A stretch of DNA of 64,000 bases from Corynebacterium ciconiae DSM 44920. GTDB taxonomy: Bacteria > Actinomycetota > Actinomycetes > Mycobacteriales > Mycobacteriaceae. The stretch is taken from the NCBI RefSeq assembly GCF_030440575.1, contig NZ_CP047189.1, positions 1,674,001-1,738,000 on the forward strand. The letters run 5' to 3'. Numbering within the stretch: position 1 is the first letter of the stretch; each line of letters begins with the position of its first letter. The notes beneath the pieces were generated by a model, which did no database searches, was not told where the DNA came from, and saw only the letters and a list, made by a program, of their open reading frames with translations. Shown here one piece after another: positions 18,918 to 46,355 of this stretch. The position numbers were made by a program, and so were the translations under genes.

Positions 18918-18930
18918 TAGCCGCGAGATG

Positions 18931-18968
18931 GCGTCGATAAGCATGCACACGCTTATCGACGCTTTTTT
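18931..18968 (+). terminator. Terminator built from two inverted copies of the GCGTCGATAAGC motif
   Basis: GCGTCGATAAGC (18931-18942) is followed after 8 bases by its exact reverse complement (18951-18962) and then TTTTTT. This is a textbook factor-independent terminator for betA, and its stem is exactly the 12-mer that recurs elsewhere in the window. It lies 13 bases after the betA stop and just before the convergent ABC gene. Confidence 0.85.
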
Positions 18969-18981
18969 CGTGCCGCAACGC

Positions 18982-21354
18982 CTAGGAATCCACGCACCAG
19001 CGGCTCACGTCGACCACGTGGTCTGCCCGCTGGAGCACCAGGGGATCGTGAGTGACCGCAAGCACCGTTGTCCCCTTCTCCACGACTGCCGAAAGCAGAT
19101 CGACAACCTCGGCGGTATGCCGGGTGTCGAGACCAGTGGTGGGCTCATCCACCACCAGAATGGGCCGGCCGGCGGCGAGAGCACGGGCAATGCTGGCGCG
19201 CTGGCGCTGCCCGCCCGAGCATGCGGCTGGCTTGTGATCCTCCACCGCGCTCAGCCGCACCGAGGCAAGCAGCTCGTCCGCATATGCCTGCGGAAGCGGG
19301 TGCCCGCCACAGACCGCGGCGCGCCGGATCTGGTGGCGCAAGCTAAACATGGGATGCAAGGCTTGAGAGGCATCTTGGGCAGCATAGGCGCACTCCTCGC
19401 GAATCGGGCCGGGACCGAGAAGCCCCAAGATATAACGGATGAGCGTGGTTTTCCCGCAGCCGCTCGGGCCGCTCAGCACGGCGAAGCTGCCGGCGGGCAC
19501 ACGGAAGTGGACGTCGTGGAGAAGCAGCTCTCCCTTCGCCGTGTACACCTCCATGCCCTGCACGCTCAGGCCACCATGATCCTGGAACACAGTGCCCTGC
19601 CCCGCATCCCGGCGCGGCGACACCTCAGCGGAACCGCTGCTCGCATGCGGTGGGTGTTCTTCCTGCTCTGCGGTGTCTTCGCAGGGCAGTTCAGCCACGG
19701 TTGAGGGCCTGATGATGGTGCGTGTGTCCTGTTCTTCCACCACCACAACCTGATCGCACACTCGCCGCAGGAAGTCGGGGTCGTGGCTACTGAGAACAAT
19801 GGCGGCCCCGCGGGCTGCCGCATCCTCGAGCACGCGCGCCACCGCATCCACGGCGGCAGCATCAAGACCAGTAGTGGGCTCGTCCAAGACGAGAATCTCT
19901 GGCGCATGGGCCAGGGCACGCACTAATGCCAAGCGAGTGCACTGCCCGCCGGACATGCGCGCCAAGGAGTCAAACTTCTCCGGATCGAGGCGCACGCTCT
20001 GGGCAACGGCATTCACCGCTTCCCTATCGATCGCCCGCCGAGGACGGCCGTCTCGAATAATCGACCATTGGGAACGAGCCGTATCCACGGTGGTGACCGC
20101 GTCTTGCTCGACGAGACCGCAATGCTCGCGGCGCCAGCGTCGCCACCACCTATCGCTGTGCTCGCTTGCGTGCGTATCAGTGGGAAAGCGCCTACCGCCC
20201 AGCCACACCTGCCCCGTAACCTGCAGGGCGGGTGCGGGACAGGCCGCGAGCAGCGAGAGCAGCGTGGATTTTCCACTGCCAGAAGCACCGCTGATCCCTA
20301 GGATCTCGCCCGGTTGGACGCACAAGGACTGCACCTCGATGGGCGTGGAGCCCGGATATGCCATGCGTAGCTGCTCCACCGCGATGCGCGCACCGAGCGC
20401 GGTCGGGTGTGCTGCCGCAGGCCCGTGTTCTGGCGCCGCGGTGGCGGCGGTGGCCGCGGTGTTGGTTCCACGACGCTGCGAGGTGTGCCCAGAGCGCAGC
20501 GTCGGCGGCTGCACGGCATTGACCAGCACATCGAAAAACAAGACGACGACGAGTAGCAGCGCAACGATAGCGCAGGTCGGGGCAATAACCGCTGCTGGAT
20601 TCAGTATGACCCCGGAGAGGTTTTCTCGGATCATGAGCGCCCAGTCCGCCGTGGGGGCCGTGGGCCCCAGCCCGAGGATATGAACGCTCACCATCAACTG
20701 CATCGCAGCCAGACACCGTACTGCGGCATCGGCGCCGATGAGCGGAAATAACGCCGGCACCATCTCCCGGAGAGCGATAGCGACGGTGCTTTCACCGCGC
20801 ACCCGGGCCGATTCGATGAAGCCGGCGGTCGTCAGCGGCGCCGCCGCCGCGCTGAGCTGGCGCATGCCCTGCGGCACTCCCAGCAACAACATGGCCGCTG
20901 ACACCGCGATCCACGCCGGAAAGATACTCGCCGCCGCAAGCACCACCACCATTGCCGGGATCGCTAACAGGGATGTGGACAGACGGTTGGCCACCCTTCT
21001 CCACCGCGGGCGTTGCACGGCGAGAAGGGACAGCACAGTGATGCAGAGGGTGGTCACAGCACCAATCGGCAGCGCCACCAAAAGCCGAGCACCGCCTGCC
21101 AATAATCGCTGTCCCACGTCACGGCCCAAGGCGTCGGCGCCCAGCAGTCCCACCTCTTGGTCATAGGGAAACGACACTGGGTGCACCGTATCGCCGGCCC
21201 GCACTGGGCCGTAGAGCACCAGCGCGCACACCAGCGCCATCAGCAGGCTGACTACTACAGCTGCGATCTGCGTTCCAGGCCACAGCCTGCTGCGGCGGGA
21301 CTCGGTGCCAACCACGTTGGTGCGTGGCTGCTGCCGCATTCGTATCCGGCTCAT
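18982..21354 (-). CDS. Three-in-one oligopeptide/nickel-type ABC importer: permease-ATPase-ATPase fusion
   Basis: 790 aa combining what are normally three genes. Residues ~25-285 are a DppC-like permease (LLGADALGRDVGQRLLAGG, then five or six spans with FIESARVRGEST as the EAA loop). Residues ~320-540 are a first ATPase (Walker A GASGSGKST 356-364, MSGGQ, Walker B ILVLDEPTTGLD). Residues ~600-790 are a second ATPase (GPSGCGKTT, CSGGQRQR, ILVVDEPTTGLD). Both sites look intact. The ATG overlaps the stop of the next permease gene by 4 bases (ATGA). With the SBP and DppB-like genes it forms a complete importer, which its position next to the NRPS/PKS genes suggests takes up the metallophore. The arrangement recalls the ddp genes beside sid genes in C. 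diphtheriae (from memory). Confidence 0.85.
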   Translation of the reverse strand: MSRIRMRQQPRTNVVGTESRRSRLWPGTQIAAVVVSLLMALVCALVLYGPVRAGDTVHPVSFPYDQEVGLLGADALGRDVGQRLLAGGARLLVALPIGAVTTLCITVLSLLAVQRPRWRRVANRLSTSLLAIPAMVVVLAAASIFPAWIAVSAAMLLLGVPQGMRQLSAAAAPLTTAGFIESARVRGESTVAIALREMVPALFPLIGADAAVRCLAAMQLMVSVHILGLGPTAPTADWALMIRENLSGVILNPAAVIAPTCAIVALLLVVVLFFDVLVNAVQPPTLRSGHTSQRRGTNTAATAATAAPEHGPAAAHPTALGARIAVEQLRMAYPGSTPIEVQSLCVQPGEILGISGASGSGKSTLLSLLAACPAPALQVTGQVWLGGRRFPTDTHASEHSDRWWRRWRREHCGLVEQDAVTTVDTARSQWSIIRDGRPRRAIDREAVNAVAQSVRLDPEKFDSLARMSGGQCTRLALVRALAHAPEILVLDEPTTGLDAAAVDAVARVLEDAAARGAAIVLSSHDPDFLRRVCDQVVVVEEQDTRTIIRPSTVAELPCEDTAEQEEHPPHASSGSAEVSPRRDAGQGTVFQDHGGLSVQGMEVYTAKGELLLHDVHFRVPAGSFAVLSGPSGCGKTTLIRYILGLLGPGPIREECAYAAQDASQALHPMFSLRHQIRRAAVCGGHPLPQAYADELLASVRLSAVEDHKPAACSGGQRQRASIARALAAGRPILVVDEPTTGLDTRHTAEVVDLLSAVVEKGTTVLAVTHDPLVLQRADHVVDVSRWCVDS

Positions 21355-22337
21355 CGCTTCACCCGCCTCTCCAGGGCAACGCTGAGCACATCAGCGCTGG
21401 TGTAGACCACGACGGCGATGCAGGACAGCACCAGGGCGATTCCCTGCACCACCGGCATGTCGCGTGCCCCGAGGGCGCTGGCGAGCAGCCCGCCCACACC
21501 GGGATAATTCAGTAGTGCTTCCACCACCACACCAGCTCCCAGCAGTCCGACGGCACCAATCGCCGCGGTGTGCAGCACCACGGGTGCCATCCGGATCGCC
21601 ACACAACGCCACAGCCGCTGCAGCAACGGCATGCCGCGACGCTGGGCCGAGACATACAGTGGCAAAGCGAGCAGCTCCTCTGCGGGGCCGCGCAGGATCC
21701 GCGCCACCCAGGCAGCCACGGGGATGGCCAGCCCGAGCACCGGGAGTACGAGCTGCTCGGGCGATCCCCACGGTGATTCCCCGAGGGGGATCATGGTCAC
21801 AGCCGGAAGAAGCCGCCACTTCACCGCGAAAAGCAGGACAAGTAGCACGACCACAATGGCCTCCGGGATCGCAGCGCAGGCCGCGACGAAGGCGCTAAGC
21901 ACAAAAGCGCTCGGGCGACCGCGCAGCACAGCCTGAATCAATGCCCCACCGATGCCGAAAGTCATCGCCAAGATCCACGCGGGCAGCACGATGGCAGATG
22001 AGGCCCCCAATCGATGAGTGACAGTACTGAACACATCGGTGCCCCCGATCCAACTCGTTCCCAAATCGAGCTGCAGGGCGCTCCACCACCAGCTAGCCAG
22101 CCGGTACAGCACCGGCTGGTCGAGGTCATAGTGGGTGCGCAGGCGCTCCGCGGCATCTTGGTTCGCCCCAGCGAGCTGGGAGGCGAAGTCTCCAGGAAGC
22201 CACGCAGTAATCAAGAACACGACGCTCACAACGACCAGCAAGGTCACAAGTGCAGAGCCCATATTGCTCAGCACACGGCTCATCACCGCTGCACCTTTCG
22301 GCGCCCTGCTATCGGCGGTGGGTGGGGCTTTTTTCAT
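21351..22337 (-). CDS. ABC transporter permease, DppB/OppB type
   Basis: 328 aa, six predicted spans. Family marks are the first span VTLLVVVSVVFLITAWLPGDFA, the periplasmic YDLDQPVLYRLASWWWSALQLDLGTSW typical of DppB, and the EAA-type loop (YVSAQRRGMPLLQRLWR). It partners with the DppC-like half of the downstream fusion. The frame opens at 22337, but an internal ATG at residue 19 (MSRVLSNMGSA) looks closer to the family start. It overlaps the downstream gene by 4 bases and lies 44 bases after the SBP gene, so the three form one operon. Confidence 0.88.
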   Translation of the reverse strand: MKKAPPTADSRAPKGAAVMSRVLSNMGSALVTLLVVVSVVFLITAWLPGDFASQLAGANQDAAERLRTHYDLDQPVLYRLASWWWSALQLDLGTSWIGGTDVFSTVTHRLGASSAIVLPAWILAMTFGIGGALIQAVLRGRPSAFVLSAFVAACAAIPEAIVVVLLVLLFAVKWRLLPAVTMIPLGESPWGSPEQLVLPVLGLAIPVAAWVARILRGPAEELLALPLYVSAQRRGMPLLQRLWRCVAIRMAPVVLHTAAIGAVGLLGAGVVVEALLNYPGVGGLLASALGARDMPVVQGIALVLSCIAVVVYTSADVLSVALERRVKR

Positions 22338-22381
22338 CGCGGCTCCTGATTAGCTGACTAGCTGATTAGCGTGGTTCGGAA

Positions 22382-23920
22382 TTAGGCGGTTTCGACCCCG
22401 TCGAGGGTGTAGCGGGCAGAGCCATCCCGCCAGCCGCTGACTCCTTCTGCCATGCAGTCCAAGCCGCTGCCGAAGCCCCACACGACCCAGCCGCCTTCTT
22501 CTGCCATACGGTGGTGCAGCTTGCCGAGGGCCTCGTTACGCTCCTTTTCATCCTGGATGCTCATAGCGTCAGCGAAGTCCTTGTCGAACTGCGGGTTTTT
22601 GAAGCCCGTCTCAGAGAAAGGAGAGGAGGAGAGCACCGTCTGGCGCACGGTCACCGCAAAAGGAGTGTTGGTGTACATGCCCACAGTGAAGGGCTCCACC
22701 GTGTAAGCGGTGGACCAATAGGTATCAGGGGCGTGCTCCTCGATCGTGACGCGAATGCCCGCCTCTTCCAGTTGCGCCGCGGCAACCGTGGCAGTGGTCA
22801 TCATCCCCGGATAGGACTGCGTGCTGTGCAGAGTCAGATCCAGGCCGTCCGGGTGTCCCGCCTCGGCAAGCAACTTCTTGGCCTTCTCCACATCGCGCTT
22901 GATGGGGGTGACATCCTTCGGCACCGAGGGATCATTGTGCTTGATCATGTCATAGCCCACGGACCCATAGCCGAGGAAGACTTGCTCGACGAGCTTCTCA
23001 CGGTCAAGAGCAAGCTTGATAGCATCTCGCACTTCTTTCTTGTCGAAGGGCGCGGTATCAACACGCAGCAGCAGCGGATAAGTCTCGTAGCCAGGCCGCT
23101 GGCGGATGGTGTAGCCGGACTGCTGCTCGAGCGACTTCGCGGCGGCAGGGGCGAGCGAGGAAGCAACCATCACCGCACCGGTGGATACGGCATTGGCCAT
23201 CGCTTGAGGATCGCTGAAGCCGTTAATCTCTACTCGCTGGGCACGGGTATCACTTCCCCACCAGTGCTCATTGGGGCTCAGCACAGCATTGGTGCCCTCC
23301 AAGGCATCCTGAACGAACGGTCCCGATGCTATGGGCGAATCGAATTCGGCAGTCCCGTCCTTCACCACGAGGATGAAACCGGCAAGCATTCGCGGCAGCT
23401 CCGCATCCGGCTCGAACGTCGCAAGCTCAATAGTGAAATCGTCCACGATGCGAGAGGACTGAATGTCCACGGTGCCCAAGCGCACACCGTTTTGTTCCTT
23501 CATCTCGTCGATCCGTTTGAGGCTGTAGAACACATCCTGAGCGGTGAGCGGAGAGCCGTCTGCGAAGTGAGCGTCATCGCGAAGATCGAACACCCAGCGG
23601 GTGGAATCCTCATTCGGGGTCCACTTTGTGGCAAGACGCGGTACCAGGTTTTCATCGTCGCTGAGCAGCAGCTGATCGTACACGCAGCTGAGGCGGAACC
23701 AATCGGACTCGGAGAACAGCGAGCCATGGGGGTCAATGGAGGCTTGGCTGCCTGCAGCAACGGAGGCGAAAGTCAGGGTCGCGTCAGCGGAATCGGCGGC
23801 ACCGGAGGACGAGGACTGTGCACTGCTGCTGTCGCCGTTATTAGAGCCACAGGCTGCTAGTACGGCCCCAGCGATGGTTAAGCCGGTGACAGAGAGGAAT
23901 CGGCGGCGGTTCATTGCCAT
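22382..23920 (-). CDS. ABC transporter substrate-binding lipoprotein, peptide/nickel/opine type
   Basis: 512 aa. The N-terminus MAMNRRRFLSVTGLTIAGAVLAACGS has an RRRFL motif, so Tat-like export is possible, and a lipobox ending LAAC, so it should be a membrane-anchored lipoprotein. The mature part is an SBP family 5 protein: DPHGSLFSESDWFRLSCVYDQLL, then DGSPLTAQDVFYSLKRID and VRDAIKLALDREKLV. Family 5 proteins bind peptides, nickel chelates or opine metallophores. Context favours a metallophore. TAGGAGA lies upstream of the ATG at 23920. The gene starts 90 bases after the PKS stop. Confidence 0.88.
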   Translation of the reverse strand: MAMNRRRFLSVTGLTIAGAVLAACGSNNGDSSSAQSSSSGAADSADATLTFASVAAGSQASIDPHGSLFSESDWFRLSCVYDQLLLSDDENLVPRLATKWTPNEDSTRWVFDLRDDAHFADGSPLTAQDVFYSLKRIDEMKEQNGVRLGTVDIQSSRIVDDFTIELATFEPDAELPRMLAGFILVVKDGTAEFDSPIASGPFVQDALEGTNAVLSPNEHWWGSDTRAQRVEINGFSDPQAMANAVSTGAVMVASSLAPAAAKSLEQQSGYTIRQRPGYETYPLLLRVDTAPFDKKEVRDAIKLALDREKLVEQVFLGYGSVGYDMIKHNDPSVPKDVTPIKRDVEKAKKLLAEAGHPDGLDLTLHSTQSYPGMMTTATVAAAQLEEAGIRVTIEEHAPDTYWSTAYTVEPFTVGMYTNTPFAVTVRQTVLSSSPFSETGFKNPQFDKDFADAMSIQDEKERNEALGKLHHRMAEEGGWVVWGFGSGLDCMAEGVSGWRDGSARYTLDGVETA

Positions 23921-23942
23921 GTCAGTCTCCTATGAGAGTGGG

Positions 23943-23962
23943 CTTTCGCGCTCGGGCGAAAG
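23943..23962 (-). promoter_or_regulatory. Hairpin between the PKS/NRPS stop and the importer operon
   Basis: A 7-bp stem (ctttcgc 23943-23949, gcgaaag 23956-23962) with a 6-base loop lies in the 90-base gap, 23 bases before the SBP start. There is no T-run after it. It could be an RNA processing or stability element that gives the importer a different expression level from the synthetase. Confidence 0.35.
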
Positions 23963-24010
23963 GATGGGTGATGAGAGGGATGGAATGTGCTAGGCACGAT
24001 CAGCACCCCA

Positions 24011-27000
24011 TCAGGGAGGCTTATCGCCTTCTTCAGCTGCGGCGGCGCGCGAGCACCGCGAGCGTCCCGTGGTGTGGATTCCCGTGGTGTGGTTACGCAA
24101 CGCCTGCGAGAGCAGCGTGGCCACTCGGACCACCTGTGGTTGTCGAAGAATCGAATAGTGGTGTGCTGGCACGCCATGTACCTCGAAGGGGCCATCGATC
24201 CAAGAATCCCACCCGAGATGCTCCTCCGTGCAGTCGTCGACCCCCATACCCTCCCCGCTGTTTCGGGGGGAGCGCTGATCCGCCCGCACCAGAAGAACAG
24301 CTACTTCTTGGTCCAACGGGTGCGCATGATGATCATAAAGCGCGTGAATATGGCGAGAAAATATGTCGTTTCGCACTTGTAGCGCCTTCGGGGACACGTC
24401 TACACCGTGCGCTTCGAGTTTTTCGCACAACGTGTCTACATCGGAGTCGGGGCCGCTATCACCGTCGAGACCAAGATAGGCTTCGATAGAACGCAGCTGC
24501 CGCAACATCATGCGATTGTCGCTACACTCCTGGCGCTCTTCTTCGCTCAGAGACAGCGCTTCGCCTTGTTTGAGAATATCGATAATTCTTTCTGGAGAAT
24601 TAGAATCCAACATCCACACAAGATCAACCGAATCCCCTTGCTTGCGAAGAGCACACGCGATTTCGTGAGCCAATGTTCCTCCCATTGACCAACCGCCAAT
24701 CGTGTAGGGACCATCCGGTGATATTTCTTTTATTAAACTATAGTAAAGATCAACCATCTCGTCGATACTCGCGCCGAGAACGTCGTGTCCGGCAATCTCC
24801 GGATCCATAATCGCAACGCATGGACGATCCGTTTCTAGGCGCCTCGCTAATTCTAGATAGCACAATGCATCGCCGCCAGAGGGGTGAATGAAAAATATTG
24901 GCCTTCCCTCGCCGCGGGTGAGATGCAGACAACAGTCTCGAACCACACTCGCGATATCAATCTCTTTTACCCGAGCCGACTCTGTAGACGCTTTGTGTGA
25001 ATCTGCGGCGCTTTCATCGCCGTCGGAGGTTCCTCCTTCCCCCTGCACAGCAGCAGATATATACGCCTGCGCCAGTCCTTCCCGAGTGGGGTGCGCAAAA
25101 AACTCTGGGGCTACTTCTGCCATTGATAGCCGGCGGCTATCCACGCACTCCAGCCCTGTGGAACACAACCTTTGTATAAGTTGCACGGCCAGCAAGGAAT
25201 CGCCTCCGCCCCTAAAGAAGTGTTCTTCGCTTGCAATAGGAACGAGCTCGTTCCACAGCCTTTCAATGCACCTCTCTAGCTCAGCGGAGATCTCACGCAC
25301 GTGCTTCTGCGGTGAGTTATGAGAATTCTCATTCTCCCCTGCCGTGAGATAATCGCTCAGAGCCATGCGCTCTTGAGGGATCTCGACAGTTTTGTGCCAT
25401 GCGGACTCGCTGCCTAGCTCCAATAAGAGCTCGTATACTTGATCGAGAATCAACGATGGCACATCCCCAAACCGCTCCGGGAGAGCGGCCATGGACAACA
25501 CACATTCCCCGTAGAGCTCGAAACAACGCAGTTCAAGCTCCACCTGAGGCGTGCGAACCTGCTGGAAGTACTCCGAGATATCTATCGTTCCCAAAGGGCC
25601 AGCATTGGTGCTCAAGTCACCGCCCAACGCTGCGTCCATTCCGAGTGTGGACTGGAATACAATCGGCGCCACGGATCGCGCTCGGCCCATGTCCTTCAAC
25701 AGCATTCGGCTGATGTCCACTGCGCTTATGAGGTTGTGGGACAAGCACTCACCAGATTGAGCAGCAATTGACCGTGCCACTTCTCGTATCGTCGGCTGCG
25801 CGCCAGAGGAATCATTCCTCCCAAGTTCGAGGGACACTAAAGCTGTGCGCGAGAAGGGTCCCATCAGGTCCATCACATCCGGGTGTATGCCGTGTCGATT
25901 GTGCTGCAGCGTATTAAGTAGCATCGCACCACGGTGAGTGCACTCTGCTAAAGCAAGCGCGAAAGCCGTCATTGCTGCTGTGGTAGCAGTAACACCTTCT
26001 CTGCGTGCCCGTTGGCAGATGCGTGACCACGTCTCTGCAGAAATCCTGCGTTCTAGCATGAGCATCGACCCAGCGCTGTTAGTCACAGTGGCAGGAGCAT
26101 CTGCGGGGTTAAGCACTGGAGGCGCAGGAAGAGTGGGAAGCCGTTCGCTCCACCATTGCCGGTCCGTATCCACGGCATCTTGTTCATACTCCTGCACAGA
26201 AAGCGCGTAATCCGCAAAAGTAATGTCGAGTTCAGGTAGCGGCTCTTCACTACACAGTGCCTTCAGGAGAGCCCGGTCAAATAGTGACGCAGACCAGCCG
26301 TCGAGAACGAGGAGGCTGGAGGAGACGAGGAAGCGACCATGACCGCCAGGCAGAAGTAGTGCCCCTACTATCGCTGTAGCTCCACCGTTTACTGGATTTG
26401 GCCCTTGGTGAGTCATAGTGTGGCGGTGCCGCTGCAGGGCCGCCTCGAGTTCTTCCGGCGCAGTCAGCCCACGCATATCGACAACACGCACCTCCACGCA
26501 TGAATCGATAACGTCCGCCGACGTTGGCCGGAAATATTGGAGTGAGTCTTCATCAATACTCACACGCAGCATTGGGTGCGCCACAGCCACACGGCGACAG
26601 GCAGAACGCAGGATTCTCGTCACCTCCGCTGGGTCGTTGATCTGCATATTCCACAGCGGAACGTCGGTATAGACGTGCGCGGTCGGATACGACACGTCGA
26701 GCGCCTGCGTCTGCCCCACAAAATATGCCTGTTGGAGAGACATCAGCGGGAAGCGCTGCTGAGGATCGGCACGCTTGAGCTCGATGCTGGCTTGGCCCTC
26801 GGGGTGCTCTGCTGGGGACGGTGCGAGCAGCTGTGCGAGCTTGTCCACGACCTCGTTAACGGTGACATCCGCCCTCATCAGGGGCGCCGGAAGGGTGCAC
26901 CCCAACTGGGATTTCAGCGTGTTCGCGATACGAACGGCCAAAAGTGAGTCTCCACCGATATCGAGGAGGGTGGAGTCTCGTTGAATGGACTCGGCAGGCA

Positions 27001-32905: not shown

Positions 32906-34026
32906 GAGACTGATTCCTCCTTGATGAGCTCTAGGCTGAATTGGTCCAGCCATTCTAGGGGGTGGTGTTTTTCTGGGTACCGGCTTTTAACGGTGAGACC
33001 CGCTGCAGTGGCTGCCTCTACCCATTCCTCACGGTTGAGAAAAATGCGTCCGCTGCTTCCGCGGGCATCCTGAAATTCTTGGCGCGGCCCACTCGGATCT
33101 GGCGCCATAAGAAACCTCATCGAGATCTGCAGGGGAAGATGTTCTGTTCCTGTCTCGATGAGATACATGCTCCCGTTCGGCCGCAGATGTTCGGATAGCT
33201 CCGAGAGCAGTTGCACAGGCCTTAGTGCGTTATGTGCAACGTTTCCACAGGCGATTACATCGAACCCCGAGCCTGTATGGAGAGAATCCAAAGCCTCACC
33301 AGGGGCATCATTGATATCGACGATACCGAAGTTCATACTGGGCCGTCCTGCGTAGCGTAGCTTTGCACGGTGCAGAAACCACCGCGAGACATCGCTAAAG
33401 GTGTAGTCCACGTGTGCGTTCCGGAGTGCATCAAGAACTGGGTCAGTGAGTGCGCCTGTACCCGCACCTATCTCTGCCACGGCGAGCCTGGATGGGCAGC
33501 GCGCTGCGCGGGCAGCGAGCTCGGACGCCACGTTGGTATTGATGGCACTACTAATTGGGTTGTTCTGATACATAGCCGAGGCGGCACTGAGTGCATCGTT
33601 GTCAAAAAGTATCTGTCGCACGGTGTTTTCTCCCACAATGAGCGACTCGAGTTCGGCATCACAGGTAGAGAAAAATGCGTCAAGATTCTTTTGATTGTCG
33701 ATGGTGCTCTCGTCCCACCCAGCTTCGGAAAGTAGCTCCTCGCCACGCACGCGGACTTCGGACCAGGAACATGACTGGGGCACATCACCGGCGTCCTGTG
33801 CAAGCAATTCCCTCCATCGTTTCTGCTGGACGTCGGGGTTCGAGGTGATGCTTTCCCAGCGGCGCAGAATCGGTGTGAGGTGCGCCGGTACGTGAGCGTA
33901 ATCGACTTTCCTCAGCGCTCGAGATATCGAGCCATATGCGGCCTGCTCGCGGTAGACATGGTGCACTTTTAACGCGTAGACGCGCCCAGCTGTGAGATCA
34001 GGGGAGACTGTATCCATGCTAGTCAT
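32902..34026 (-). CDS. Stand-alone SAM-dependent methyltransferase of PKS cMT type
   Basis: 374 aa. Motif I is VAEIGAGTGALTDPVL (residues ~190-205), followed by YTFSDVSRWFLHRAK, GFDVIACGNVAHNAL and LRPNGSMYLIETGT, the order seen in carbon methyltransferase domains of polyketide and siderophore synthases. The N-terminal ~170 residues resemble the linker that precedes such domains. In yersiniabactin HMWP1 the equivalent lies inside the protein between AT and KR. Here that slot of the megasynthase is empty and the enzyme is separate. It overlaps both neighbours by 4 bases (ATGA with the ABC gene, GTGA with the megasynthase), so the three should be made in fixed ratio. Likely role: C-methylation of the ACP-bound ketide in trans. 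Confidence 0.85.
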   Translation of the reverse strand: MTSMDTVSPDLTAGRVYALKVHHVYREQAAYGSISRALRKVDYAHVPAHLTPILRRWESITSNPDVQQKRWRELLAQDAGDVPQSCSWSEVRVRGEELLSEAGWDESTIDNQKNLDAFFSTCDAELESLIVGENTVRQILFDNDALSAASAMYQNNPISSAINTNVASELAARAARCPSRLAVAEIGAGTGALTDPVLDALRNAHVDYTFSDVSRWFLHRAKLRYAGRPSMNFGIVDINDAPGEALDSLHTGSGFDVIACGNVAHNALRPVQLLSELSEHLRPNGSMYLIETGTEHLPLQISMRFLMAPDPSGPRQEFQDARGSSGRIFLNREEWVEAATAAGLTVKSRYPEKHHPLEWLDQFSLELIKEESVS

Positions 34027-35789
34027 GACCGGCTATCCTCTCCCCGCTCCGCAGAAGACGAGTGCATCGCTTGGAATGTGGAACAGCGCGACAGCAGTTC
34101 GCTGTAGGTGCCGGCATCGACGATGCGTCCAGAATCCATGACGACGATGCAGTCGGCTGACACGACTGTGCTCAACCGGTGTGCCGCCATCACAACGGTG
34201 GAATCTTGCCGCAGCTTCTCGATGGCCTGCATGATGATCCGCTGCTGGAAAGCATCGAGCGCGGAGGTGACCTCATCAAGCAACACCACGGGTGCTTGTT
34301 TGAGTAGAGCGCGGGCGATGGCCACACGCTGTCTTTCTCCACCCGAGAGCCGCTCGCCGCCTTCGCCCACTACGGTGTCAACGCCATCCTCAAGATACCG
34401 CGCGAGATCCTCTACCCCGCAGATGTCCATGACGTGCTCGATCTCTGTAGCGCTAGCGCTGGGTCGAGCAAGGGCAATGTTGTCACGAATACTGGTATTG
34501 AGCAGGTAGGTGTCCTGAAAAACCACGCTGACGTGGGTGGAAATATCCTCGATGCTCATCCCGCGTACATCCCGCCCCATAAGGTGCACTGTTCCGGAAT
34601 CAACATCCCCGAAGCGCACCAGCAGGGAGAGCAGGGTGGTTTTCCCGGATCCGGAAGCGCCGACAACCGCAACTAGACCCGGCCCATCGAAGTCCAAGGA
34701 GAGGTCATCGACTCCAGAGGTGGAGTTCGGGTAGTGCATGCTCGCGTGTTCCAGCGAGAACGCCGCGGGCTTTCCCGTCTCGGGGTTGAGCTTGGGTGGC
34801 TGAGCAGCACGCTCAGGGTCCTGCTGTAGTTGTGGGGTAGCGAAGAAATCCAGCAGCCGCTGCACTGCGTTCCGGGCCATGCGCAACGCTGCTGCGAGTT
34901 CAGCAACACCGCGTAAAGGTTCGATACACCTCAACAGCAGCAGAATATTCAGCACAATTGCTATACCGCTTTGCTCGCTGCGTACCCCGTGCACAACCGC
35001 CACCACCAGGCTCAGCGCAATGGTGAGCTGCACCATGAAGGCGAATACAGTCACGCCTGGCAGGACCAAGCGGATCATGCGTGCGGTGTCGTCGCGAACG
35101 CGATCGAGTGCGGTATCGATGCGCTGCCGGCCGAAGCTTTGGGCAGAAGCCAAGCGCAGAGTCGGTTGCAGCCGAGCAAACTCGATCACCGCGCTAGCGG
35201 CTAGTTCTTGGGCTTCATGCAAACGACCGTCGCTGGCGGCCACCATAGCGCGCCCCCATACTGCCGCACCCCAACAGAAAAGCAAGAGCACCCAGAGGAT
35301 CCCTCCTAGGAGGAGGTCACGCGATGTCAGCAGCACTGCCAAGGAACACGGCACGATCACCGCTGGAATGAGGCGCGGGAGAAGATGCGCTGGAATCGAC
35401 ATAGCCTGCATCACGTCCCCCGTGGTCAGGGTCGCGAGATCGCCCCTGCGGTCCGTGCAGAACCAGCCATAAGGAAGCGAGATAAGAGTGCGACGCACCC
35501 GCTCTAATAGTCCTTCGGCCAAGGAATATCCTGCGCCCCTACTCGCCATGACGCCCAGGCTGGAGACGATCACCCAGGCTGCGGCTAGCAGAAACGCCGG
35601 CCACAGCGGAGCGTCCTCGGTCAGTGCCACGGTGGCCATGAATATTGCCGCGACCTCCAACAGGCTGGCAGCGGCTACCACGCCGATCGATATCCCGACG
35701 CGGCGGCGATCACGAGCGTCAAGAGAGAGCACCAGCCCGCGAAATGTGGACCGTCCTGCGGCACTCGAATGTGTGCTGTGAGTACTCAT
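34023..35789 (-). CDS. Half-size ABC transporter (TMD-NBD), YbtP/YbtQ or IrtAB-like, first of pair
   Basis: About 588 aa from the ATG at 35789; the frame extends to 35810 but that start overlaps the upstream gene. An N-terminal six-helix exporter-fold domain (~20-310) is followed by an ATPase with Walker A GASGSGKTT, signature LSGGERQR, Walker B VVLLDEVTSALD and switch His in AAHRLST. Pairs of such half-transporters lie in the yersiniabactin (YbtPQ) and mycobactin (IrtAB) loci, where they import the iron-loaded siderophore despite the exporter fold. Sequence alone does not fix direction. It forms a heterodimer candidate with the next protein and overlaps the methyltransferase by 4 bases. Confidence 0.88.
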   Translation of the reverse strand: MSTHSTHSSAAGRSTFRGLVLSLDARDRRRVGISIGVVAAASLLEVAAIFMATVALTEDAPLWPAFLLAAAWVIVSSLGVMASRGAGYSLAEGLLERVRRTLISLPYGWFCTDRRGDLATLTTGDVMQAMSIPAHLLPRLIPAVIVPCSLAVLLTSRDLLLGGILWVLLLFCWGAAVWGRAMVAASDGRLHEAQELAASAVIEFARLQPTLRLASAQSFGRQRIDTALDRVRDDTARMIRLVLPGVTVFAFMVQLTIALSLVVAVVHGVRSEQSGIAIVLNILLLLRCIEPLRGVAELAAALRMARNAVQRLLDFFATPQLQQDPERAAQPPKLNPETGKPAAFSLEHASMHYPNSTSGVDDLSLDFDGPGLVAVVGASGSGKTTLLSLLVRFGDVDSGTVHLMGRDVRGMSIEDISTHVSVVFQDTYLLNTSIRDNIALARPSASATEIEHVMDICGVEDLARYLEDGVDTVVGEGGERLSGGERQRVAIARALLKQAPVVLLDEVTSALDAFQQRIIMQAIEKLRQDSTVVMAAHRLSTVVSADCIVVMDSGRIVDAGTYSELLSRCSTFQAMHSSSAERGEDSRS

Positions 35790-35796
35790 CGCGGAC

Positions 35797-37554
35797 CTAC
35801 AACCCCACACAGAGCTGGCTGAATACCGAGTCGCGCTGGGCGCATAAGTCCGCCGGACTACCGTGTTCGACGATGCTGCCGCGGTCCATCACCCACACCT
35901 GTTGCGCTTGTGTGGCAAAGGTGAGTCGGTGGTCAATCCTGATAATGGTGACTCCTTGTTGGTGGTGTTCTTCCAACCCCTGATCGATGCGTCGCTCGCC
36001 GAGCACATCAACTGCAGCGGTAGGTTCGTCGAGAATGAGCACGGGCTTTCGCTGGTAGAGAGCACGGGCAAGAGTGAGCCTTTGCCGTTCGCCGCCACTA
36101 AAAGAGGCTTCCCGGCCAAGAATGGTGTTCGTGCTCTCCGGCAGGGCGTGTACCCGCTCATCGAGTTGCGCCTGCTGCAGACAGGAATCGATGCGGGTGC
36201 TGACTGCGTCGCGCCCCATGGTGACGTTGTCTGCGATGCTCGCCTGCAAAATTCCTGGGTGTTGACCCACGAAGGCGACATACGTACCGATTGCCCCCAG
36301 CGGTAGTTGCGTCATCCTCACCGCTCCCGAGGGCGCATGGATGATGATGTCGCCCTCATCGATGGAATACAGCCCCGCGAGGACCTGGGCGAGTGTTGAT
36401 TTTCCGCCTCCTGAGGGGCCAACTAGGGCCACGCTTTCCCCGCGATGGATGACCCCACTTACTCCGTTGAGGACGCGATGTCCCTGCCGCGAACAACTCA
36501 CCTCGCGCAGTTCGATGGACTCCCAGTCTTCCGGCCACTGGCTGTGTGCGCTGTGAGTCTCATCGCGGGGGCGGTCCGTTGCGCGTTCTCCCATCACCGC
36601 GTCTAAGCGTTGCGCTGCGGCTAGCCCGGCGCTGATATGTTGTGCGGCATAGGCCAGCGGCAAAATGGGAGCTCCCACCATCGGCGCGAGCAAGGCGGCA
36701 TAGGCGATCGCCGCGGTGCCGACGTCGAACAGCAGCCCAGCTCCAATTGCGATCACAAAAGCGGGCACGGGGCTCAGGAGGATCTCCGCCGCCGTCATTT
36801 TGCGTCCCACATCCATCGCCCACGCGTGGACGAAACGGCTATAGCGCGTCGCGGCCTTCCGGAATTGATCGGCAGATGCCGTCTCATCGTCAACAGTGAA
36901 AAAGACTTTCGAGACTGCGACACCTTCCACGGCAGCGACACTTGCACTGTCGAGGGCGGACACATGTGCGAAATACTCGTCCATCTTTGCCATCGCAGTG
37001 CGCCCGTGATGGAGCTGAATGCCGGCGCCCATCAGAGCCGGAACACAGGCAATAAGTCCCGCCTGTGGGGAAAAAACCGCCAGGGCGATCAGGGCGAGTA
37101 CTGGCGTGAGAATCGAGGCGACGGCGTCGATAAGCGCATGCGCAACGACGTTGTGTAGGGCCCCAACATCATCTGTGAGCATTCGTTTCACTGCCGCTGA
37201 GTCTTTTTCAGCGAACTCGTCCATGGGCTGGATTTGCAGATAATCGGCGATATCCCCGCGCAGCTCACGCTGGAGAAAAGTGTCGGCCAGGTGGCTCACC
37301 GTGGTCGCCGCGCCCAAAAAGATCGCTTGGCCGAGGAATCCGAGGATGGCGCCTATCAACAGCGGCCACGGAAGGAACCCCGTTCCGAGGTCAGTGACCA
37401 GCCATCCAGCCACTGCTGCGGTGCAGAGCATTCCCGCCACAGCACTGAACGAGGACAGCGCCTGCAAGACCGAAGCGAACAGCAAACGGCGACGGATTGG
37501 GGCCACGATGCGCATAAAAACTCCATATTCTAAGCGCTCTTCTGGGCTGCTCAT
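35797..37554 (-). CDS. Half-size ABC transporter (TMD-NBD), second of pair
   Basis: About 585 aa from ATG 37554 (MSSPEERLEYG); upstream in-frame starts at 37578/37575 are equally possible, because the GGAGGG site sits 14 bases before 37554. Six-helix TMD (~20-310), then ATPase with Walker A GPSGGGKST, signature FSGGERQR, Walker B VLILDEPTAAVD and His in IDHRLTF. It is the first gene of the minus-strand operon that runs through the second half-transporter, methyltransferase and megasynthase, and is divergent from the NRPS gene. Its stop is 7 bases before the next start. Confidence 0.87.
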   Translation of the reverse strand: MSSPEERLEYGVFMRIVAPIRRRLLFASVLQALSSFSAVAGMLCTAAVAGWLVTDLGTGFLPWPLLIGAILGFLGQAIFLGAATTVSHLADTFLQRELRGDIADYLQIQPMDEFAEKDSAAVKRMLTDDVGALHNVVAHALIDAVASILTPVLALIALAVFSPQAGLIACVPALMGAGIQLHHGRTAMAKMDEYFAHVSALDSASVAAVEGVAVSKVFFTVDDETASADQFRKAATRYSRFVHAWAMDVGRKMTAAEILLSPVPAFVIAIGAGLLFDVGTAAIAYAALLAPMVGAPILPLAYAAQHISAGLAAAQRLDAVMGERATDRPRDETHSAHSQWPEDWESIELREVSCSRQGHRVLNGVSGVIHRGESVALVGPSGGGKSTLAQVLAGLYSIDEGDIIIHAPSGAVRMTQLPLGAIGTYVAFVGQHPGILQASIADNVTMGRDAVSTRIDSCLQQAQLDERVHALPESTNTILGREASFSGGERQRLTLARALYQRKPVLILDEPTAAVDVLGERRIDQGLEEHHQQGVTIIRIDHRLTFATQAQQVWVMDRGSIVEHGSPADLCAQRDSVFSQLCVGL

Positions 37555-37644
37555 CGTGAATCTTTTTCCCTCCATCACGCTTCATCGCACACAACGCTGT
37601 ACGAAGCCTAGGCAACCTTCAATCTTTGAGGTAAAAATCTAACT
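37555..37644. promoter_or_regulatory. Divergent promoter region of the metallophore locus
   Basis: About 66-90 bases separate the start of the transporter/megasynthase operon from the NRPS start. One shared control point for both arms is expected. The stretch gaagcctaggcaaccttc (37602-37619) has a right half (CAACCTT) like a DtxR/IdeR iron box, but the left half does not match, so I do not call an iron box. GAGGT at 37628-37632 is the only ribosome-site candidate for the NRPS, with a long spacing. Confidence 0.5.
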
Positions 37645-40600
37645 ATGAATTCCCCAATTGGCAACGTTACCCATTACGGGTTGCGGTCTCTGCTCGCTGT
37701 CCTCGACAGTGCGCACCTCACTGAGGACGTTGGCACACTGCCCAATCCCGAACTTGTGACATTGCGTGATTGCGGAGTCACATCGTTTCAGGCCCTTAAA
37801 ATACAACAAACCTTGCGCGAGGACTTAGGAATACAGGTCCCACTCAGCGAACTTCTGGGCACACTCACCTTGGGCGAAATTGCACGCCGCTACCACCCCC
37901 AAATGGGAGCAGGCTCCAGCGCTCAGGGGCAGGCCGAAGATTCCTCAACCTTTTCTCGCTCTGCGGACGCTGCCGAAGAGATGCCACTCACCGCCCTTCA
38001 GACTGCGTATTGGGTTGGGCGCTCCCACGAGTTTGAACTTGGTGGGGTGGGGTCCCATTGGTTCAACGAGTACATCCTCGATATCGATGCCATCACCCGC
38101 AGTCCCGCAGCCCGATATCTCTTAGATGATGCGCCAGATACAACCCCAGCTGAACTCGCAATTGAGGTCCTTGACGTTGCCTTTCGTAGAGTGCTCGCCG
38201 CAGAAATCACTCTGCGTAGTGCGGTCACAGCCGAGGGGCGCCTGCGGGAGGCAGTGATCGACTGCCGCGATTATCGGATTGAACGCGTCGACCTCCGTGC
38301 GAGCGATCAGCACACTGCGCAGGAGCGCATGACGATGCTGCGTCACAGCCATTCGCACCTTGTCTTCGACCCGATGCGCTGGCCGATGTTCGCGATCACA
38401 GCGGTCCTCTTGCCTGACCACAGCGTGCATCTTTTACTCAGCACGGATGCAGTTCTTCTCGACTATGCGTCTTTTACCGCCCTACTCACACGCTGGAAGG
38501 AGGCAGTGTATATGCCGTTTTCCGAAATGAGCGCTCACGATACATTTCGCCAGCCCTCTCCCCTGCCGGAGTCGCACGATGCCCAGGCATGGTGGGAGAA
38601 ACAAAAACTTAATCCCCCACCCACCTTGGCTGTCGCTCCACAGGACGCCGCAGACACCACTACTCGATACCAGCGCCGCATTGATGGGAAGACGTGGGCG
38701 CAGATTGTGGAGCAGTGTGAACGTCACCACGTCTCTCCCACGGGATTGCTCTTGACGGTATACGCAGTGATCTTAGATAGATTCCGAGTAAACGATGAGG
38801 ATTTCTCCATTAACCTCACCGTCTATGACCGCCCTCCGGGACAATCGGATGTCATTGGCGACTTCAGCAGCAATGCCATCTGTGATGTTCCTACGTTGAA
38901 CTACACGGCTCCTGCAGAGCGCACGATTAAAAACATCACCGATCGGCTGTGGGAGTGCGTTGATCACCGCGCCTACCCTGCCAGCGCCGAACGCAAGCGT
39001 CGGAAGCTGCACGAACAGGCTTCGCCTTTTAGTGCAACTGATCCCATCGTGTTCACCTCTACTCTCGGCGTAGGAACAACTGATGCCGAGGAGTGGCTTG
39101 GGAACAAGCAGCTCGGATTGTCTCAAACTCCGCAGGTTTTGGTCGATCATCTCGTATTCACCGCAAGTGATGACCTCGTGCTCGTATGGGATGTGCGCGA
39201 CGGAGAATGGCCAGAGGACATGTGGACGAGCTTCGCAGATTCTTCTCTCCGAGCACTTTCCCAATTCGCCACGAGCGATACATGGGAGCGGCCGAGTCTA
39301 GGGTGGATGCCCTTCCACATCGAGATGGATGCCCCGGCAAATGCCGGTGTCCCCGAGGACGACGGTCTGCTCCATACTCCTTGGATGCGAGCCGCCAAGC
39401 GCTATCCAGAGCGTCCCGCAATCATCACTACTAGCGCTACCGTGACGCATAGAGAGCTAGAAGAGCGCGTCTCCGCACTGCGCACGACCCTTGACACCCA
39501 GGTCACTGCTGGTGATCGTGTCATCATCGCTATGCCAAAGTCAGCCGCTCAAGTAGTCTCGGCGCTGGCGGTATGCGCCAGCGGCGCGGCCTATGTGCCC
39601 GTAGACCCCGCGTGGCCAGCAGCTCGAATCGAGGCAGTCGTGAAGCGGGCGACACCATCGACGCTCCTCACTCTGTCCGATGAATCCGAAGCTCTCCGCG
39701 CCCTGGCAGAGACCTATTCGCTGAGCCAGATCACGCTCCGCCACGACGGGACGCTGGACACCAGCTGCGGCCCTGTCCTAAAGGAAGAACACCCCCTAGC
39801 ACCAGCGCCGCGCCACACCAGCCCCGACGATCTGGCCTACATCATCTTTACCTCGGGTTCCACCGGAGAGCCCAAAGGTGTCGCAATCGAGCACCGTCAA
39901 GCCCGGGTAACTATTGATGACGTTAACGACCGATTCACTATCACCGCAGAGGACAGCGTCTTGGGGGTGTCGTCTCTCAGCTTCGATCTTTCTGTATACG
40001 ACGTGTTTGGGATGCTCGGTGTAGGAGGATGCGTGATCCTTCCAGATCCCCACCAAGCCATTGACCCCACCTACTTGGCCACGCTCATAGAGAAGCACGG
40101 GAGCACAGTGTGGAATTCCGCTCCTGCCACATTCGAGCTCGTCATCGATGCACTAGAGACCACCCCTCAGCCACCGTCTATTCGCAGCCTGCGGCATGTA
40201 CTTCTCTCTGGTGACTGGCTTCCCATCACGCTGCCCACGCGCATGTGGTCCCTCAGTCCCGACACCTATATTCATAGCCTTGGTGGCGCGACCGAAGCGG
40301 CTATCTGGTCCATTACCTATCCCATTACAGCGGTGCACGAGTCGTGGACGAGTATTCCCTATGGCCGTGCCCTCCGTGGCCAAGAGTTCTTGGTGCTTGA
40401 TGAAAACGGCCTGCCCTGCCGGGTGGACCAACCCGGAGAGCTACACATTGGTGGGCACGGAGTGGCCCGCGGCTACCTAGCGGATGAAGAAAAAACGAAC
40501 GACCGCTTCATCATTCATCCCGTGCTGCAACGACGTTTCTACCGCACAGGCGATATCGGTAAATGGCGGAGTGATTCCACCATCGAATTCTTAGGTCGAA

Positions 40601-43449: not shown

Positions 43450-43527
43450 ACTCCAACCACTCATAGGCGAGGACGAAGCTCGTATGCCTACGATGAACAC
43501 CGCACTCACGCCATGGAGGTAAAAACG

Positions 43528-44565
43528 ATGACCAACCCCACTTCCCTGCCTTTAGTTGATGCCGAGGTGATCGTAGTAGGAGGTGGCGGCGCTGGAGCGA
43601 CGGCCGCGTTGCTTTTGGGTCGGCAGCGGCGAATGACCATCCACATCGATAAGGGCGACTATCGCAATGCCCCCTCCCCTGCCATTAATATGCTCGCCGC
43701 CAGCAATGGCATCTCCCCCTCTGACTACATGGCGAATGCCCGGGCGGCTCTTCGCGAGCTCGACACTGTTGTTGCTGTTCGCGAGCAGGTTCGTTCCGCC
43801 CGCACTCTTACCGCCCGAACAGACGACGGCCAAGACGTAGAGGCAGTCGAGGTCACCCTCGCTGGCGGCCGTGTGATCGTCGCCCAGCGCCTCATTCTCG
43901 CCACCGGCCAGCATGATCACCCCAATGTGCTGCCCGGCGCCGCCGAGTTATGGGGCACTGGGGTGCTGCATTGTCCCTACTGCCACGGCTACGAGGCTAA
44001 GGATTCAGCCATCGCGGTCGTTCACATCCAGCGACCCGGTGCCCCGATGGCTGGGCTACTTGCCTGCTATCAGGCGCTCTATCTGCGCCAACGTCTTAGC
44101 GATCGCGTCACCCTTATCACCGAGGAACTCCCACCCGCAGAGCATCGCAGCGCTCTCGAGTCACTAGGAGTGCGAATAATTCACGCCCGCACCCAGCGCA
44201 TACACGCAGGAGAGAGCTCTGGGTGTGTGTTGCGTACCGAGCCCCTCAGCCCATCCTCGGAGGATCAGGCAACCGAGGAATATCACCTCGATCATGTCTT
44301 CTTCCACGCCCCTACCAGCGCCAGCCTTGATCTCAGCGCTGATCTCGAACTGGAGACCCAGGGCCCCTTTGTGCTGGTCGACGCCCAGCAGCGCACCAGC
44401 AATCCCTTGGTCTTCGCCGCGGGAGACACCGCGGTCCTGCGCGGCACTGCCCAGCCATTGACTTTTGTGGCGCAAGCCCAGGCCCAAGGTCAGGCTGCCG
44501 CGCTGTGGGCGGATCAGGATTTGTTTTTCGCCCACCCGCACACGCCGGCGTTTCCTAGCAGTTAA
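43528..44565 (+). CDS. FAD-dependent pyridine nucleotide-disulfide oxidoreductase with CPYC motif (dithiol-oxidase-like)
   Basis: About 345 aa from ATG 43528, preceded by GGAGGT at 43515-43520. The N-terminal FAD motif is VVGGGGAGATAALLLGR. The redox pair is CPYC (Cys149, Cys152) in LHCPYCHGYE, and the C-terminal FAD site LVFAAGDTA is present. CxxCHG-type proteins include the dithiol oxidases that form disulfides in gliotoxin, holomycin and romidepsin (GliT, HlmI, DepH), but the group also contains uncharacterised actinobacterial thioredoxin-reductase-like proteins. It starts 78 bases after the NRPS stop on the same strand, so co-expression with a cysteine-activating NRPS is likely. A role on the thiol product is inference. 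Confidence 0.8.
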   Translation: MTNPTSLPLVDAEVIVVGGGGAGATAALLLGRQRRMTIHIDKGDYRNAPSPAINMLAASNGISPSDYMANARAALRELDTVVAVREQVRSARTLTARTDDGQDVEAVEVTLAGGRVIVAQRLILATGQHDHPNVLPGAAELWGTGVLHCPYCHGYEAKDSAIAVVHIQRPGAPMAGLLACYQALYLRQRLSDRVTLITEELPPAEHRSALESLGVRIIHARTQRIHAGESSGCVLRTEPLSPSSEDQATEEYHLDHVFFHAPTSASLDLSADLELETQGPFVLVDAQQRTSNPLVFAAGDTAVLRGTAQPLTFVAQAQAQGQAAALWADQDLFFAHPHTPAFPSS

Positions 44566-46017: not shown

Positions 46018-46355
46018 GCGAAATCCCCTGTGTCTTTCACTCGTGTGCGGTGTGGGCCGCACGGCGGATGTGGTGGCTGGTGCCCCTGCCGGATGCCCAA
46101 AGGATTCGGCGAGGAACACCACCCACAATAGACAGTCCTGTCTGCAATAACTAAACCGCTCTGTCTTTAAGTGAATAAGCTCACATTAGCTCGGGGGATT
46201 CTTGGCAGCCACAGCCCTACCCGCGACTGAAAAATCAGTCATACTTAAAAGCAGTGCCTACCCCGCTTCGTGCACCGCAGAACAACGCTGCGGCCTTCGG
46301 CGGTGGGCAATGTGCACGACTGACACACTGTCACCAACTTTTTAAGGTGGTTTAT

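Follow-up and report, generated by a model that had tools for sequence, protein, structure and literature searches.

A 64,000-nucleotide stretch of the Corynebacterium ciconiae DSM 44920 chromosome, hereafter the window, was analyzed (bases 1674001-1738000 of a single-contig complete genome of 2,584,365 bases). Its positions 18982-44565 are filled by nine genes, encoding a nonribosomal peptide synthetase (NRPS), a polyketide synthase (PKS)-NRPS hybrid, a methyltransferase, two ABC half-transporters, an Opp/Nik-type importer, and a thioredoxin-reductase-like flavoprotein. We tentatively read this locus, with a confidence just short of even, as a largely self-contained, salicylate-free system for a cysteine-derived thiazoline metallophore. 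It would be a divergent member of the sidAB-cdtPQ-nik2 group of Corynebacterium diphtheriae, with zinc as the usual metal and with thiols that would serve as the substrate of an oxidase.

A preliminary description, made from the sequence alone, had proposed a yersiniabactin-like thiazoline metallophore locus without starter-unit genes, with the sid/ddp genes of C. diphtheriae as the nearest relative. The gene set agrees with this proposal, with C. diphtheriae compared by its description in papers, and the ends of the locus were confirmed by the open reading frame (ORF) list and Pfam. This list comprised 137 ORFs of at least 120 aa, mostly overlapping each other, and 39 of them were scanned with Pfam.

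Domain organization and the missing starter enzymes

The NRPS contains three carriers, a single adenylation (A) domain, and two heterocyclization (Cy) domains in the order CP-Cy-A-PCP-Cy-PCP. This is the module order of HMWP2 without its methyltransferase (MT) insert, as the preliminary description had stated. The three carriers, the A domain, and Cy1 were supported by Pfam, and Cy2, which scored 12.9 bits and fell under the cut-off, was assigned by motifs and by alignment with relatives. Motifs were compared across 18 NRPSs, including two pairs of close relatives, and 15 hybrids from related loci. The A-domain code is DLYNLSLIW in the window, which we take to be the cysteine code of HMWP2, and DL.N.SLIW was present in all 18 NRPSs. 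The serine of the N-terminal carrier (CP0) was likewise conserved in 18/18, so this carrier is probably in use. Its motif, G[VIML][DET]S, is unlike that of the GGDSL carriers of the hybrid. Cy1, Cy2, and Cy3 retain Cy motifs with variations: the first Asp of Cy1 is Glu in C. halotolerans and G228, and the last Ser of Cy2 is Thr in the window and Gly in several relatives. The PCP1-Cy2 stretch was absent from three Nocardia NRPSs in the alignment.

HMWP1 has the order KS-AT-MT-KR-ACP-Cy-MT-PCP-TE, with two MT domains. The hybrid had been described as following HMWP1, and this likeness needs correcting, because an extra Cy4-PCP4 module before the thioesterase (TE) is common to the compared hybrids; the window hybrid also has no internal MT. 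PCP4 scored 17.8 bits in Pfam, just under the cut-off, and was identified by its GGGDSL motif and by alignment. Cy4 is by sequence still a Cy domain, with EpoB as its best match. The first Asp of its DxxxxDxxS motif is gone in all 15 hybrids, replaced by Ser in 14, including the window, and by Gly in one. The Asp of TPQVxLD is Glu in nine of the 15, again including the window, and is kept in six. The methyltransferase is encoded by a separate gene, its nearest solved relative is CurJ, and it presumably acts in trans. Homologues stand directly 5' of the hybrid gene in Aeromicrobium, Glycomyces, Streptomyces ACA25, Williamsia, Saccharothrix, and Amycolatopsis.

The YbtPQ-like half-transporters lie between the NRPS and hybrid genes, as first described, and PDB matches supported this assignment. 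Among half-transporter chains, IrtA/IrtB of the mycobactin importer matched best, followed by YbtP (6p6i_A, 160 bits) and YbtQ (6p6i_B, 200 bits); two-lobed eukaryotic ABCB chains outscored IrtA/IrtB. A YbtPQ-type pair is thus present by sequence, with import as its predicted function. The NikA/Opp-type importer at 18982-23920 had been passed over in the preliminary description. Its solute-binding protein is a probable metallophore receptor, and its permease-ATPase fusion has homologues in the same place in G124 (93% identical) and 13CS0277 (48%).

The reported lack of salicylate synthase, aryl-AMP ligase, thiazolinyl reductase, and phosphopantetheinyl transferase (PPTase) genes was reproduced in the Pfam scans of the 39 window ORFs. 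The search for starter genes was then extended over the genome. Its three chorismate-binding proteins are PabAB-like, TrpE, and an isochorismate synthase, and none scored above the salicylate synthase cut-off. The isochorismate synthase gene (L003) has no siderophore genes in the 3.8 kb around it; the ORF beside it presumably encodes a glutamyl-tRNA synthetase, judged by its first residues. None of the twelve AMP-binding proteins of the genome matched the 2,3-dihydroxybenzoate (DHB)-AMP ligase model at E<=1e-60. For the eleven besides the NRPS, the NCBIfam models gave eight fatty-acid or acyl ligase types, one o-succinylbenzoate ligase, and one Pls/PosA-type NRPS, and the remaining protein (L044) matched no family at E<=1e-50. 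Some of the eight acyl ligase assignments were under the curated cut-off, and one FadD32-type fatty acyl-AMP ligase was above it. Thiazolinyl imine reductase (TIGR01761) was found in none of eight genomes, this one included (no match at E<=1e-5), and the E. coli positive control was matched. Elsewhere, the genome encodes two proteins of the PPTase family, one of them Sfp-type.

A similar picture was obtained from 17 locus-bearing genomes, several of them draft assemblies. The cut-off of the salicylate synthase model was exceeded in two, both Nocardia and both on contigs other than that of the hybrid. The DHB-AMP ligase model reached its curated cut-off in none and gave more than 500 bits in eight. 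No match above 500 bits was found in the other nine (G000, G124, G202, G204, G205, G206, G212, G213, and G214), for which 47 of 55 candidates were scored in G206, 47 of 101 in G213, and all in the other seven. In six of the seven strong-ligase genomes besides 13CS0277 (N. speluncae being the seventh), the ligase lies off the hybrid's contig. A PPTase gene adjoins the cluster in Propioniferax, Glycomyces, and Aeromicrobium, and no ligase was recognized in the flank ORF lists of these three, which were read from initial residues and from likeness to the window genes.

Since no salicylate synthase, aryl-AMP ligase, or thiazolinyl reductase was found genome-wide, the usual starter enzymes do not appear to be encoded elsewhere. 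One proposal of the preliminary description, that something encoded elsewhere charges the N-terminal carrier, is accordingly disfavored as far as the usual aryl-acid enzymes are meant; a general acyl ligase outside the locus might still do so. Its alternative of a different starter fits, and the simplest candidate would be cysteine supplied by the line's own A domain.

Flavoprotein, distribution, and metal control

The flavoprotein gene at the end of the locus had drawn no comment before. Its best PDB matches were 4ntd (93 bits), deposited as a thioredoxin reductase and which we take to be HlmI, followed by DepH (82-83), the uncharacterised oxidoreductase 3fbs (82), and GliT (69). The putative thioredoxin reductase 4fk1 (58), the uncharacterised 7br0 (45), and other thioredoxin reductase entries (at most 42.5 bits) scored lower. 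The motif HC[PA][YF]CHG was found in 16/16 aligned loci, and the GxGxxA of the second nucleotide site was not recognisable in these aligned flavoproteins. The AlphaFold2 model had a mean pLDDT of 84.2. By sequence the protein is therefore of the dithiol oxidase type, being thioredoxin-reductase-like, with a CxxC and with no NADPH site by motif. HlmI, DepH, GliT, and DnoP are likewise flavoproteins with a CxxC, and in the open-licence literature, as far as it was available, none of them is described in a metallophore uptake locus. Within that literature, no title described a metallophore-linked dithiol oxidase or this actinobacterial zincophore NRPS family.

The flavoprotein gene is in the locus for 12 of the 15 compared hybrids, the exceptions being three Nocardia within the stretch examined. 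In the metagenome-assembled genome (MAG) G115 it comes after ddpD, and the contig there is probably the continuation of the one with the synthetase. As an exclusive marker of the locus the flavoprotein was rejected, because at least 96 of 242 Corynebacterium genomes carry a match at E<=1e-20. Twelve of them exceeded 150 bits, and seven of these twelve have the synthetase. Three genomes (G062, G120, and G160; loci L188, L190, and L193) carry the half-transporter pair, the flavoprotein, and DdpABCD with no hybrid match, and their best match to the NRPS covers the A domain only; these synthetase searches score the two best candidates per genome. In G150, the flavoprotein and DdpABCD occur with one half-transporter and with NRPS genes of another kind. 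The flavoprotein gene of G242 (L189:7193-8170) has no importer within 15 kb and no hybrid match in its genome. Genomes that lack synthesis thus tend to retain the flavoprotein alongside the importer, and G062, G120, and G160 may use the metallophore of another species.

The collection contains at least 80 loci with matches, and the counts of flavoprotein and importer loci given next apply to the 80 listed. The NRPS, half-transporter pair, Opp/Nik importer, and flavoprotein occurred together in Corynebacterium (two branches), Propioniferax, Aeromicrobium, Glycomyces, Saccharothrix, Amycolatopsis, and Streptomyces, and part of the gene set was seen in the stretches examined of Williamsia, Dietzia, and a Rhodococcus MAG. 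The flavoprotein exceeded 70 bits in at least 11 loci, all with an NRPS of the window type. The importer genes ddpA/B were present in at least nine, including the Rhodococcus loci L078 and L081, where the hybrid is rearranged and no flavoprotein was found in the flanks examined. No C. diphtheriae locus was among the 80. The C-terminal half of the hybrid matched 10 of 242 Corynebacterium genomes at E<=1e-60, seven of them of the window kind. The other three (G036, G168, and G224) matched residues 6-511 only; G036 has another NRPS locus, and G168 and G224 share the same frame length. In Propioniferax innocua only a TE remnant of the hybrid is left before ddpA (G202:C2:477120-477329), and the NRPS, transporters, and flavoprotein remain.

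In the midpoint-rooted NRPS tree, the window grouped with G124, 13CS0277, Propioniferax, and Glycomyces (100/99), and C. halotolerans, G228, and G115 grouped with Dietzia and Rhodococcus (100/100). Since its members fall on both sides of this split, Corynebacterium seems to have gained the locus twice, as two distinct types. In gene order, C. halotolerans and G228 agree with what is described for C. diphtheriae; their NRPSs are only about 30% identical to that of the window.

To assess metal control, a Zur matrix was derived from the S. coelicolor consensus core and from three C. glutamicum sites for which the cited passages report in vitro binding (PMC2823685). Promoters were scored against 1000 column-permuted matrices that kept the A+T bias. 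For 16 NRPS loci, the regions were chosen visually and tightened once initial results had been inspected; for Williamsia the promoter between the oxidase and methyltransferase genes was used. Nocardia and Rhodococcus loci including L062, L066, L069, L078, and L081 were outside the test. The summed Zur score was 342.6 compared with 150.4 +/- 19.8 for the permuted matrices, none of which scored as high (0/1000). Individual sites in 11 of the 16 loci were reached by at most 9/1000 permuted matrices. The remaining five were the window (54), G124 (82), 13CS0277 (912), G217 (100), and the Rhodococcus MAG (50 of 1000). The four loci with transporters and oxidase (G062, G120, G160, and G150) and the lone G242 gene, where the site is directly upstream of the flavoprotein gene, all had Zur-like sites at no more than 1/1000, with their regions set after the sites were seen. 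Because the loci are related (the NRPSs of C. halotolerans and G228 are almost the same), the 21 do not count as independent observations.

In the window itself, the best Zur candidate is a weak palindrome inside the NRPS start (37656-37676, AATTGGCAACGTTACCCATTA, similar in G124), which scored 12.8 and was not accepted. A DtxR candidate at 37603-37621, shared with G124, scored 7.3, was equalled by 204/1000 permuted matrices, and was rejected. The divergent promoter contains the stretch GAAGCCTAGGCAACC, common to the window and G124. Over the 16 loci, DtxR sites showed no excess (332/1000); single good sites were found in G228 (5/1000) and G150 (0/1000). Because the Zur-like promoter scores exceed the permuted controls, the locus family is probably zinc-controlled, and the branch of the window has probably lost or changed this control. 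The preliminary description had left the metal open; the family points to zinc, and the window's own promoter does not say.

Proposed assembly and competing explanations

In the assembly proposed here, the single A domain would activate cysteine and load PCP1 and PCP2, and also PCP3 and PCP4 in trans. Most simply it would load CP0 as well, because no other acid-activating enzyme accompanies the locus, and the chain would begin with a free cysteine. Cy1 and Cy2 would form two thiazolines, the PKS part would add a reduced C2 unit methylated in trans, and Cy3 would form the third thiazoline. Cy4, in which two Cy-type acids are lost or changed, would probably add the last cysteine and leave its ring open, and the TE would release the product as an acid. 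The predicted product is Cys-thiazoline-thiazoline-CH(OH)-C(Me)n-thiazoline-Cys. Besides two free thiols and three ring nitrogens, it would present one amine, one alcohol, and one carboxylate group. Its calculated [M+H]+ would be 524.0583, 538.0739, or 552.0896 with no, one, or two methyl groups, less 2.0157 as the disulfide and less 18.0106 with the last ring closed.

With two free thiols, the dithiol oxidase would have an intramolecular substrate. The metal complex would be returned by the NikA-type importer, by the YbtPQ/IrtAB-like pair, or by both. The oxidase may close the disulfide during synthesis or export or, more likely, in the processing of the complex after import; the latter is favored because the gene persists with the importer in synthetase-free genomes. 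A more specific proposal is that five cysteines and one methylated C2 unit are joined with one A domain and no starter enzyme into a dithiol zincophore, from which the oxidase frees zinc in the cytoplasm by closing the zinc-binding thiols. Release by ligand oxidation is proposed because zinc, unlike iron, cannot be reduced off its carrier; we regard this proposal as doubtful in its full detail. The oxidase would offer a test of the free thiols and a possible answer to how zinc is removed from a zincophore, and the transporter-plus-oxidase loci in synthetase-free genomes hint that different species may share the product as a common good.

Several observations weigh against the cysteine-started dithiol reading. 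In C. halotolerans, G217, G228, and three Nocardia, Cy4 retains the second-position Asp, so ring closure may not be lost throughout the family. Flavoprotein homologues are common in Corynebacterium, as given above, and no flavoprotein was seen near three Nocardia and two Rhodococcus related-synthetase loci (flanks of about 10 kb). The window promoter has no convincing Zur site, nor do those of G124 and 13CS0277, and its DtxR candidate failed as well. The place of the best site also gave little: it lay in the promoter in 12 of the 16 loci, compared with a permuted mean of 8.7 and a maximum of 14, and in 5/5 of the other loci compared with 1.9 and a maximum of 5. Since the permuted control showed no discrimination for the 16 loci, this statistic was replaced by the promoter scores.

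The eight AMP-binding proteins with acyl ligase models, for example the FadD32-type enzyme, could charge CP0 with a non-cysteine starter, so that a general cell ligase (FadD32-type or FadD-like) would yield an acyl-capped thiazoline metallophore, and the CP0 motif does differ from that of the hybrid carriers. However, the flanks inspected showed no acyl ligase gene next to the locus, although a PPTase gene is linked in three, and an acyl-capped product would have one free thiol at most and leave the conserved dithiol oxidase without an intramolecular substrate; we consider this explanation rather unlikely. An exogenous aryl acid, salicylate or 2,3-dihydroxybenzoate, would be used as in equibactin, whose overproducing strain needed salicylate added to defined medium according to the cited passages (PMC3672683), and CP0 stands in the position of an aryl carrier protein. 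13CS0277 carries an aryl-AMP ligase (575 bits) and an isochorismate-synthase-like match about 8 kb from the NRPS, in a region (L049:16245-17957, L163:461-4450) that also has an A-PCP-TE NRPS. These dihydroxybenzoate-type genes look like those of a separate catechol siderophore, and they could also serve the thiazoline line there, which would count against a cysteine starter. Equibactin, though, has its own aryl-AMP ligase EqbD (PMC3672683), whereas the complete genome analyzed here gave no DHB-AMP ligase match at E<=1e-60. No strong ligase match was found in G124, Propioniferax, Aeromicrobium, Glycomyces, Dietzia, or Streptomyces sp. ACA25, or among the scored candidates of Williamsia and Rhodococcus sp. 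1168, and we hold an aryl starter to be very improbable.

The remaining alternatives concern the oxidase and the state of the locus. DnoP of Pseudomonas aeruginosa is a dithiol oxidase of the DepH group that zinc starvation induces and that can use gliotoxin and holomycin as substrates, and in the part of the report cited its authors call the natural substrate uncertain (PMC11317636). The flavoprotein might similarly be a defence against foreign dithiol zinc chelators, co-regulated through zinc starvation and unrelated to metallophore thiols. The G242 gene, with its own upstream Zur-like site and no hybrid match, fits such a role, but the oxidase gene lies within the importer or synthetase cluster in the 16 aligned loci and in G062, G120, G160, and G150, and this role appears unlikely. 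A relic locus, silent or in decay, is the faintest of the possibilities considered. Loss does occur in the family, as the TE remnant of Propioniferax demonstrates, and the window lacks a convincing Zur or DtxR site, but all nine genes of the locus are open, 79-98% identical in G124 over near-full length, and retain their catalytic motifs.

Among known systems, the locus most resembles the sidAB/nik2 locus of C. diphtheriae, which in the cited descriptions also places an NRPS, a PKS hybrid, a YbtPQ-like pair, and a NikA-type importer around a divergent promoter (PMC6711530, PMC12445094, PMC13001254). There, sidAB-cdtPQ and dip2162-2165 are repressed by zinc through Zur and by iron through DtxR, with Zur sites predicted, a DtxR site reported, and no known product in the passages cited (PMC6711530, PMC13001254); the window, in contrast, has no convincing site of either regulator. 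These descriptions name no methyltransferase or oxidase gene, and the window has both. Strains of C. diphtheriae with any one of six loci, sid included, are reported to outgrow a strain lacking all of them in low zinc (PMC12445094). The family described here, which recurs in several actinobacterial genera, thus resembles a low-zinc growth locus without a known product.

With yersiniabactin, the window shares the NRPS domain order, the cysteine A domain, the PKS step, the terminal TE, and the YbtPQ-like pair. It differs in that no salicylate synthase, salicylate ligase, or thiazolinyl reductase was found, and in its extra Cy-PCP module, separate methyltransferase, Opp/Nik importer, and dithiol-oxidase-like gene. 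The eqb locus of Streptococcus equi for equibactin is also yersiniabactin-like without a salicylate synthase; unlike the window, it has, as far as described in the cited passages, the aryl-AMP ligase EqbD, the reductase EqbF, the TE EqbB, and the PPTase EqbC, and the TE serine of EqbG is lost (PMC3672683). Coelibactin is likewise an NRPS metallophore and is Zur-controlled according to the partial account cited (PMC6103462). Sorangibactin, in the available description, is an NRPS metallophore with an N-terminal phenol.

Feature coordinates and neighboring genes

Positions of the assigned features within the window, with the basis of each assignment
Feature	Position	Strand	Basis
Permease fused to ABC ATPase domains (Opp/Nik-type, DdpC-DdpD-like)	18982..21354	-	Pfam BPD_transp_1 110-280 and ABC_tran, two stretches
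Opp/Nik-type permease (DdpB-like)	21351..22337	-	Pfam BPD_transp_1; best NCBIfam Opp2B, under cut-off
NikA/OppA-type solute-binding protein (DdpA-like)	22382..23920	-	Pfam SBP_bac_5, E 6.5e-70; NikA/OppA-type PDB matches
PKS-NRPS hybrid KS-AT-KR-ACP-Cy3-PCP3-Cy4-PCP4-TE, 2980 aa	24011..32953	-	Pfam domains; motifs across 15 hybrids
Terminal thioesterase of hybrid, GGWSMGG motif	24125..24904	-	Pfam Thioesterase 2684-2943 and motif
Cy4 domain, extra hybrid module	25394..26749 (approximate)	-	Pfam Condensation, 56.7 bits; motifs
Stand-alone PKS-type C-methyltransferase	32902..34026	-	Pfam Methyltransf_12; best PDB match CurJ, E 2.1e-16
ABC half-transporter, YbtQ/IrtB-like	34023..35810	-	PDB matches
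ABC half-transporter, YbtP/IrtA-like	35797..37578	-	PDB matches
Divergent promoter, 66 bp	37579..37644	.	Between YbtP/IrtA-like gene and NRPS gene
NRPS CP0-Cy1-A(Cys)-PCP1-Cy2-PCP2, 1934 aa	37645..43449	+	Pfam, motifs, A-domain code
N-terminal carrier CP0, intact Ser in GVTSF	37687..37899 (approximate)	+	Motif comparison of 18 NRPSs
Thioredoxin-reductase-like flavoprotein, dithiol-oxidase type by sequence, CPYCHG	43513..44565	+	PDB matches 4ntd (HlmI), DepH, GliT; motifs

The flanks of the locus are ordinary, with genes for a BCCT transporter, an aldehyde dehydrogenase, and a GMC oxidoreductase on one side and for a sulfur transporter and a fumarase-type lyase on the other. Minus-strand ORFs at 17814-18950 and 17100-17630 were considered as operon members and dropped, as they overlap the plus-strand GMC oxidoreductase gene and have no Pfam match. 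An Rfam scan of the window gave no match. The sulfur transporter (44578-46128), which has a TusA domain, adjoins the flavoprotein gene, as it also does in G124 and 13CS0277, and could supply the cysteine demand of the assembly line. Further on, genes for LamB/YcsF and carboxyltransferase-domain proteins stand in a row at 47872-50146, an arrangement that we take to resemble 5-oxoprolinase operons.

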